A stretch of DNA of 64,000 nt from Candidatus Bathyarchaeia archaeon (GTDB lineage: Archaea; Thermoproteota; Bathyarchaeia; Bathyarchaeales; Bathycorpusculaceae): positions 1,082,490 to 1,146,489 of the forward strand of contig JAVZEV010000001.1 of assembly GCA_038873195.1 (NCBI GenBank), written 5' to 3'. How positions within the stretch are numbered: the first letter of the stretch is position 1; each line of letters opens with the position of its first letter. The translations under genes were made by a program, and so were the position numbers. Positions 27,207 to 28,530 of the stretch are shown here, one piece after another. The notes under the pieces were generated by a model. The model was not told the origin of the DNA. It saw only the letters and a list, made by a program, of their open reading frames with translations, and ran no database searches.

Positions 27207-27731
27207 TTGACAGCTGAAAAGGTCAAGTTAAAAGATGGCAGAACCGTACTTATAAGAAAGTTTCAGATGGACGATAAAGAGAAACTTATCCACATGTACG
27301 CATCTTTTTCGAACGACGCTGTACGTTGGGGAATGCCTCCTTACAATCGGGAAAAGCTTGAAAGAGATTGGTTTAGCAATTTTCAAAACATTATAGCTAT
27401 AATCGCTTTATATAAAGGCGATATTATCGGACACATGCAGATTTTCAAGGGTCCTCATGTACGAAGAAAAGGAACAGGCGATTTGGTGATGTATCTTCAC
27501 CAAAGCTTTCATAACGTGGGATTAGGAACCGCAATGCTTGCTAGGCTCATGGAACTTGCGAAAGAGGAAGGACTGCACCGAGTAGGCTTACATGTTGTCG
27601 CTGATAACAAAATTGCTGTTCACCTTTATCAGAACTTTGGCTTTAAAATTGAGGGAATACTGAAGGATGCATACTTTGGCGAAGACGGTAAATATCATGA
27701 TGAACTGGTGATGGGCGTGTTACTTAACTAA
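27207..27731 (+). CDS. GNAT-family N-acetyltransferase (RimI/RimJ-like)
   Basis: Acetyltransferase with 'VLIRKFQMDDKEKLIHMYASF' at the N-terminus, motif A 'MYLHQSFHNVGLGTAMLARLM' and motif B 'NKIAVHLYQNFGFKIEGILKDAY'. The last part resembles enzymes acting on protein or amino-acid amines. Start TTG 27207 is chosen because a clean GGAGGT lies at 27192-27197, nine nucleotides upstream. The open frame extends to a TTG at 27180, but that would place the ribosome-binding site inside the gene. About 174 residues. Substrate unknown. Confidence 0.82.
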   Translation: MTAEKVKLKDGRTVLIRKFQMDDKEKLIHMYASFSNDAVRWGMPPYNREKLERDWFSNFQNIIAIIALYKGDIIGHMQIFKGPHVRRKGTGDLVMYLHQSFHNVGLGTAMLARLMELAKEEGLHRVGLHVVADNKIAVHLYQNFGFKIEGILKDAYFGEDGKYHDELVMGVLLN

Positions 27732-27925
27732 CTCCACCACTCCCAATTGAGCTTTTTGAAGCCTAAATAAAGGACCAGCAGAATTATTCCCCAACTTAAT
27801 GCTATACCAGCGAATTTTAAGACATCAGGTGAGACGTAAGTATAGCTTGCCCAAGCGCTAACACCACCTAATCCTACAAGCAAAAGTGCGAACACGGCAA
27901 ATTGGATAGCACGTTCGGTTGCCAT
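27728..27925 (-). CDS. small two-helix membrane protein
   Basis: 65-residue hydrophobic protein, not recognised. Two membrane segments are clear: 'QFAVFALLLVGLGGVSAW' and 'FAGIALSWGIILLVLYLGF', joined by a short 'TYVSPDVLK' loop, with a C-terminal aromatic 'KKLNWEWWS'. The ATG at 27925 has GGTGA seven nucleotides upstream, which supports translation. It ends by overlapping the stop of the GNAT gene by 4 nt. No function can be assigned. Confidence 0.6.
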   Translation of the reverse strand: MATERAIQFAVFALLLVGLGGVSAWASYTYVSPDVLKFAGIALSWGIILLVLYLGFKKLNWEWWS

Positions 27926-28021
27926 GAATTTTCACCATCAAGCTGTTTCTAGAAGTTGGCGTATCTTATTGTTAAAACTTTCCATCAAAGTTTATTTTCT
28001 CGTTTAGTGCTTGTGTTTATT

Positions 28022-28081
28022 GAAGCCGATGATGCGAGAAGAGCCGTCGGATTTGTGAAGACATTTATGGGCTGAGGCTTC
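28022..28081 (+). ncRNA. C/D-box guide RNA candidate
   Basis: This 60-nt stretch has the complete archaeal C/D sRNA layout: terminal stem GAAGCC/GGCTTC (28022-28027 with 28076-28081), box C ATGATGC (28029-28035, one mismatch to RTGATGA), a 12-nt guide (28036-28047), box D' CGGA (28048-28051), a 3-nt spacer, box C' GTGAAGA (28055-28061, one mismatch), a 10-nt guide (28062-28071) and a perfect box D CTGA (28072-28075). It lies in the intergenic gap beside hsp20. By the N+5 rule the guides would direct 2'-O-methylation at C in ACGGC... and U in CCCAU.... Targets were not identified. Confidence 0.75.
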
Positions 28082-28086
28082 TGCAC

Positions 28087-28530
28087 TTATTCCACTGGAA
28101 TTGTATATTCGTGTTTGCGGGGAATGCGCACTTCTAGCACTCCCTTTTTGAAACGCACTGCCATTTTATCCATCTGTACGGGCACTGGAATGCGCGTTTG
28201 ACAATGGAATGTTTGGAATTCGCCTTTGTAATGTGTTATGCCAAGTTCTTCGAGGCGTATTTTCCGTTTCATTCTCGCTGATATCTCGAGAGTATCCTCA
28301 TCTAACGCTTTAACTTGCACGGTGCTTTCTTCTGTGTAGGGCAAATCAACAGTTACGATCACTTCTGTCGGCGTTACCATTATGTCACGAAGTGGTTCAA
28401 CGGCACAAGTTTTATGGTTCCAGCTTGGTCTTTCTGTTAATCGTTCTCCAAACCTTTCGAACCATTCTTCCCACTCGTCAAAGTATTCATCAATCAAGTC
28501 AAAGATTGAACGTCTTCTTCTACTAGACAT
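28087..28530 (-). CDS. Hsp20/alpha-crystallin small heat-shock protein
   Basis: 147-residue ATP-independent chaperone. The alpha-crystallin domain begins 'EPLRDIMVTPTEVIVTVDLP' and closes with 'RFKKGVLEVRIPRKHEY', which contains the usual 'GVLEV' strand. The N-terminal arm is rich in Trp, Arg and Glu ('FDEWEEWFERFGERL'). There is no obvious C-terminal I-x-I tail beyond 'YTIPVE', which may serve that role. It lies 12 nt downstream of the PAC2 gene on the same strand. Confidence 0.86.
   Translation of the reverse strand: MSSRRRRSIFDLIDEYFDEWEEWFERFGERLTERPSWNHKTCAVEPLRDIMVTPTEVIVTVDLPYTEESTVQVKALDEDTLEISARMKRKIRLEELGITHYKGEFQTFHCQTRIPVPVQMDKMAVRFKKGVLEVRIPRKHEYTIPVE

Follow-up and report, generated by a model that had tools for sequence, protein, structure and literature searches.

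The 60-base element between an hsp20 gene and a small open reading frame in the window (here, the whole 64,000-nucleotide stretch of DNA that was analysed) is, with a probability of roughly 0.9, the gene of an archaeal C/D-box sRNA that would have its own TATA-type promoter, a D′ guide directing 2′-O-methylation of C2639 in 23S rRNA, and a D guide that would be a drifted remnant. The kind of RNA is a known one; what is new is a conserved, lineage-wide member with a definite predicted site near the peptidyl transferase centre. In the mechanism that we propose, the sRNA would be transcribed on the + strand from its own TATA-type promoter, and L7Ae, Nop5, and fibrillarin would assemble on its two motifs, C/D and C′/D′ (k-turn/k-loop). 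The D′ guide would base-pair with positions 2636–2644 of 23S rRNA (CGGCUCUUC), which lie in the GAUGUCGGCUCUUCC segment next to the peptidyl transferase centre. The 2′-OH of C2639, the base that faces the fifth nucleotide of the guide counted from box D′, would then be methylated by fibrillarin. Transcription, RNP assembly, and methylation are steps that we infer from sequence. The features are as follows:

27728–27925 (−): 65-aa ORF, flanking the sRNA on the other side from hsp20
27991–27998 (+): TATA-like element TTTATTTT, after an A-rich CAAAG; putative archaeal promoter of the sRNA
28022–28081 (+): C/D-box sRNA, whole element, 60 bases (from the sequence, homologues, and covariance model)
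28022–28027 (+): terminal stem, 5′ half GAAGCC, pairing with 28076–28081
(+): single G between the 5′ stem half GAAGCC and box C (AUGAUGC)
28029–28035 (+): box C, AUGAUGC (6/7 of the consensus RUGAUGA); GAUGA and the following G are invariant
28036–28047 (+): D′ guide GAGAAGAGCCGU, 12 nt; positions 2–10 face 23S 2636–2644, predicted site C2639
28048–28051 (+): box D′, CGGA (3/4); CUGA in the sister species and many homologues
(+): D′–C′ spacer, UUU, between CGGA and GUGAAGA
28055–28061 (+): box C′, GUGAAGA (6/7 of the consensus RUGAUGA)
28062–28071 (+): D guide CAUUUAUGGG, 10 nt, an orphan with no convincing target
28072–28075 (+): box D, CUGA, perfect
28076–28081 (+): terminal stem, 3′ half GGCUUC
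28087–28530 (−): hsp20 ORF, with a Pfam HSP20 match

The boxes follow one another in the order C, D′, C′, D with the k-turn G-A pairs, and C, D′, and C′ are each one base off the consensus. The guides measure 12 and 10 nt with a spacer of 3, compared to 12 and 9–20 nt with a spacer of 3–5 in the homologues. Direct reading of the sequence bore out the anatomy that the initial annotation had given (coordinates, spacings, and box mismatches), as well as its placing of the element between hsp20, identified by Pfam, and a small ORF, which is the 65-aa one and has no Pfam match. Both neighbours lie on the strand opposite to the sRNA.

That annotation had also judged a chance arrangement unlikely, and the comparison with relatives agrees: a blastn search with 28000–28090 found homologues in 24 of 40 relatives, at E values from 1e-5 to 1e-34 and down to the order level, and a covariance model built from 39 distinct homologues gives the window copy 80 bits. 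At E ≤ 1e-6, this model detected the sRNA in nearly 100 of the 257 genomes of the class, almost always as one copy; the search was run with strict filters, so that absences are soft. A pattern scan of named genomes added one Njordarchaeota MAG and more than 30 Bathyarchaeota MAGs, the group to which the window is thereby assigned; pattern matches in Prevotella and in an “uncultured bacterium” were rejected, the rest of the C/D architecture being missing there. In the only clear case of two strong copies in a single genome, both have an equal model score (L308; G096:C1:79258-79320 and 633650-633712).

Across the 39 homologues, the terminal stem is 96% paired and four of its six pairs have changed on both sides, a level of covariation that was reached in none of 500 shuffles. 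The GA dinucleotides of the boxes are invariant and the boxes as a whole are invariant or nearly so, unlike the spacers and the D guide, which vary in length and sequence. The boxes are thus kept in relatives, which the initial annotation had put forward as a check of its reading. Moreover, a TATA-like motif, [TCA]TTAT[TCA], lies 27–32 nt before the stem at all 25 of 25 loci, versus 21% in shuffles, and the genes for Nop5 and fibrillarin stand side by side in the same genome (G000:C1:438918). Given the homologues, the stem covariation, the TATA-like motif, and the Nop5 and fibrillarin genes together, a chance element is untenable, and these facts are most naturally explained by a C/D sRNA transcribed in its own right. 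The class first assigned, an archaeal C/D-box 2′-O-methylation guide, is retained on the same grounds, and that the element is a real, and presumably transcribed, C/D sRNA of Bathyarchaeia is well supported by sequence.

A sequence lying directly past the hsp20 stop codon, with ends that form an inverted repeat, might be imagined to be non-RNA, e.g., a terminator for hsp20 on the other strand. Such an origin is extremely improbable: the arms are nearly 50 nt apart, no terminator-like site was found, and it is in the + reading that the boxes and guide are conserved; furthermore, hsp20 is near only 70 of the 121 loci, and homologues also occur without hsp20 and outside the class.

In C/D RNPs, the fifth-nucleotide rule sets the methylated base. 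Positions 2–10 of the D′ guide form nine uninterrupted Watson-Crick pairs with 23S 2636–2644, a complement in a stable RNA of at least 9 nt and in the D+5 register, which, by that rule, predicts a methyl group on C2639. Position 1 is mismatched in the window copy and positions 11–12 are without Watson-Crick pairing. The rRNA complement of the D′ guide that the initial annotation proposed to look for therefore exists, and its prediction of a methylated C in ACGGC holds as to the register and the C itself; the base opposite guide position 1 is, however, U, and the site reads UCGGC. Conservation of the guide follows the duplex, since its extent matches that of the nine 23S pairs: all 38 homologues agree at positions 4–9, variation is almost absent at positions 2, 3, and 10, and positions 11–12 drift. 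Some of these homologues came from a pattern containing the guide, but D′ conservation is no different among the 24 that blastn found. A few relatives (G020, G022) have a degraded guide. On the target side, every archaeal LSU of the relatives that spans the GAUGUCGGCUCUUCC segment has the identical sequence there; the exception is a bacterial-type 23S in a Bathyarchaeia MAG (L246, G019), a probable contamination.

A perfect rRNA 9-mer is found for about 2% of permuted guides, and the 9-bp match alone has a p of only about 0.02–0.03. On its own, the match between the D′ guide and 23S rRNA is moderate evidence; it becomes strong through its recurrence in other lineages. Outside the class, the D′ guide occurs within C/D architecture in G454, in L213 of the Njordarchaeota MAG, and in G423, G473, G486, and G544, four genomes that belong to one further family of the phylum (f58). 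These guides make 9–11 pairs to the GAUGUCGGCUCUUCC segment, as computed against the 23S of the window genome, and their D guides are unrelated. A reversed control pattern gave zero matches in 398 genomes. The Njordarchaeota copy lies between ORFs that read as tatD-like and trm5-like.

Could a genuine C/D sRNA have a D′ target other than 23S C2639? Three candidates might be considered, and it is very improbable that any of them is the true one. The 16S site C432 pairs with the guide over 10 positions (16S 428–437), but two of the pairs are G:U, and the one at position 7 is a G:U in every genome, the guides never carrying the A that would fix it; unbroken Watson-Crick pairing over positions 2–10 is found only at the 23S site. 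The tRNA-Lys(CUU) offers GGCUCUU in the C32 register, with 7 bp; this site does not track changes in the guide, and the pairing is lost in relatives that have no intron and yet retain the guide (GCGGACUCUU). A glnA-like ORF contains ACGGCUCUUCCA in sense, giving 10 bp to the mRNA, but this is one of about 20 ten-mer matches in the genome, close to the rate of the control pattern and hence at chance level. Finally, a cmscan of the loci containing RYGGCTCTTC revealed no SRP, RNase P, or 5S RNA among them. The 23S site C2639 thus remains the preferred target of the D′ guide.

The predicted site can be placed on the human map. C2639 precedes the A-loop U by 42 nt, and the distance is the same in human 28S rRNA, the sequence of which is printed in PMC12477938 with an identical GAUGUCGGCUCUUCC segment. 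Human Cm4456 and Um4498, like Arabidopsis Cm2880 and Um2922, are 42 apart, the A-loop U being Um2552 in E. coli (PMC11542601, Table 2). This spacing to the A-loop U equates C2639 with E. coli C2510 and with Cm4456 of human 28S rRNA. For yeast and Pyrococcus abyssi, the same table lists no Nm here. Cm4456 has been assigned to SNORD49A/B (PMC9941101), so that, by homology of position, SNORD49 (Rfam RF00277) and the window sRNA address the same nucleotide in identical rRNA sequence. SNORD49 is, however, a eukaryotic C/D snoRNA, and its model gives the window sRNA 10.8 bits (E 3.8) versus a gathering score of 37, which is not a significant match. The score being trivial, the comparison establishes a shared site and not shared descent. 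It is conceivable, but unlikely, that the D′ guide, which occurs in Njordarchaeota, Bathyarchaeia, and a second lineage of the bathyarchaeal phylum, is of old archaeal origin and vertical inheritance, and that the SNORD49 guide derives from it; if this were true, the D′ guide would be among the few methylation guides traceable across the archaeal–eukaryotic boundary.

The D guide has a different history. In the window copy (CATTTATGGG), it has no target in the 16S, the 23S, or the 44 tRNA candidates of the genome that scores above those of permuted guides, 48 of 150 of which do as well, and the sequence CAUUUAUGGG is seen only in its own genus. The initial annotation had predicted from this guide a methylated U in CCCAU, with a complement to be sought in the rRNA and tRNA of the genome; in view of these permutations and of the lack of conservation outside the genus, that prediction is unsupported. 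The D guide would therefore best be described as a drifted remnant without a recognisable target here, and the window copy as a double-guide sRNA with, as far as its sequence tells, one guide conserved and one drifted. A second guide with a target is usual rather than required, and orphan guides are common (PMC7994747).

What the remnant may derive from is suggested by its relatives. Deep-branching Bathyarchaeia have CUAUGAGUG as D guide, which matches that of Rfam sR41 and sR-tMet (Cm34 of elongator tRNA-Met). The D guide of families f16, f17, f19, f21, and f22, (C)CUAUGAGU or CUUAUGAGU, pairs with the CAU anticodon loop, as tested on the tRNAs of the window genome, and places C34 in register for methylation; in family f6, where it is UUUAUGAGCG or UUUAUGAGGG, the C34 register is kept. 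The complement to the CAU loop of tRNA-Met in the C34 register is present at L290, L291, L295, L297, and L299 but not in the window copy. The UUUAUGGG of the window looks like the CAU-loop guide string minus two bases, a loss that breaks the C34 register. Several other genera have AAACCCAGCG as D guide, which forms ten Watson-Crick pairs with 23S 2707–2716 and has its site at G2710 (E. coli G2581). Deep Bathyarchaeia may thus have kept the elongator tRNA-Met Cm34 guide, which other genera would have replaced with the 23S G2710 guide; this succession of D guides (tRNA-Met, then 23S, then none) is inferred from sequence similarity and not from a tree. For the D guides GAGGAGAG, GGUGAAG, and AUGGGGAA of still other genera, no convincing target was found. 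At L310–L326 (genera g11 and g18), the stretch from C′ to D is 16–31 nt long and has a conserved AUGGGGAA core, whose variable distance from box D means that it is not a normal D-anchored guide. This core has a 7-nt complement, UCCCCAU, at 23S 2602–2608, about 30 nt before the D′ target, and might make a second, holding contact.

A two-base deletion could also have shifted the old Cm34 register in such a way that the window D guide is active and methylates the tRNA-Ile2(CAU) precursor, which contains an intron, at U36, or else another CAU tRNA. The guide makes 9 bp, one of them G:U, to CUCAUAAAU of that precursor (L057), and the intermediate guides UUUAUGAGCG and UUUAUGAGGG still keep C34 in register. 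Yet the same score is attained in the 48 of 150 permutation trials mentioned above, only isolated pairs form in the C34 register, and we know of no U36 modification of this kind. Activity on U36 is, consequently, very improbable, and a drifted D guide is preferred.

An Rfam scan of the window gave no family at its gathering score. With permissive settings, all the matches on the element were to C/D snoRNA models, the best being sR41 (22.6 bits, E 0.002). sR-tMet guides Cm34 in haloarchaea (PMC4033218). Both sR41 (RF01126) and sR-tMet (RF02163) have the same box architecture as the window sRNA and nearly the same D guide as the deep-branching homologues (GAGCCCUAUGAGUG in L291); the deep-branching loci score 27–48 bits against sR41 (best 47.6, E down to 1e-9) and up to 37.7 against sR-tMet. 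However, the window copy and its homologues all fall below the gathering scores (22.6 versus 54 bits for the window copy), the two Rfam consensus sequences are without the conserved D′ guide AAGAGCCGU of this family, and the tRNA-Met register is lost in the window D guide.

The likeness to archaeal double-guide C/D sRNAs (Dennis et al. 2015, PMC4644070) extends to the C/D′/C′/D boxes, the guides of about 12 nt, the short D′–C′ spacer, the hotspot in domain V of 23S rRNA, and the fact that one guide is often empty or fast-evolving. The window sRNA differs from archaeal C/D sRNAs in general in its own promoter-like element, a feature that precedes only about 20% of archaeal C/D genes (PMC7994747), and in its absence from the Rfam catalogue. 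A further difference lies in the tempo of change. Archaeal guides are usually thought quick to turn over, and most do so, whereas the D′ guide of this family is conserved across the class and beyond. One apparently orthologous family would thus combine a fixed guide with another that moved from tRNA-Met to 23S rRNA to no target. For Bathyarchaeia, for which no RNA-modification data were found, a concrete site is now predicted next to the peptidyl transferase centre; human and plant ribosomes are methylated at the corresponding nucleotide too.

Several stable RNA genes seen in the course of this work are unusual. The tRNA-Lys(CUU) gene (L096, G000:C1:513954-514056, and L159–L180) has a short intron, 28 nt long in the window genome, that fits the anticodon stem (about 30/31) and not 37/38; G002, G013, G018, and G024 are intronless. 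A tRNA-Lys(UUU) (L104, G000:C1:192024-192097) ends abruptly within the T-arm, and a tRNA-Leu (L105, G000:C1:840835-840898) and a tRNA-Arg(UCU) (L106, G000:C1:1345121-1345191) show up as 3′ parts only, which we read as additional cases of atypical introns or of split tRNAs. The same may explain why neither tRNA-Trp nor tRNA-Tyr was recognised. Two rRNAs run well beyond their family models, the 16S of G029 (L115, 1684 nt) by about 200 nt and the 23S of G038 (L240, 3409 nt) by about 400 nt, which suggests an intron or expansion in each.
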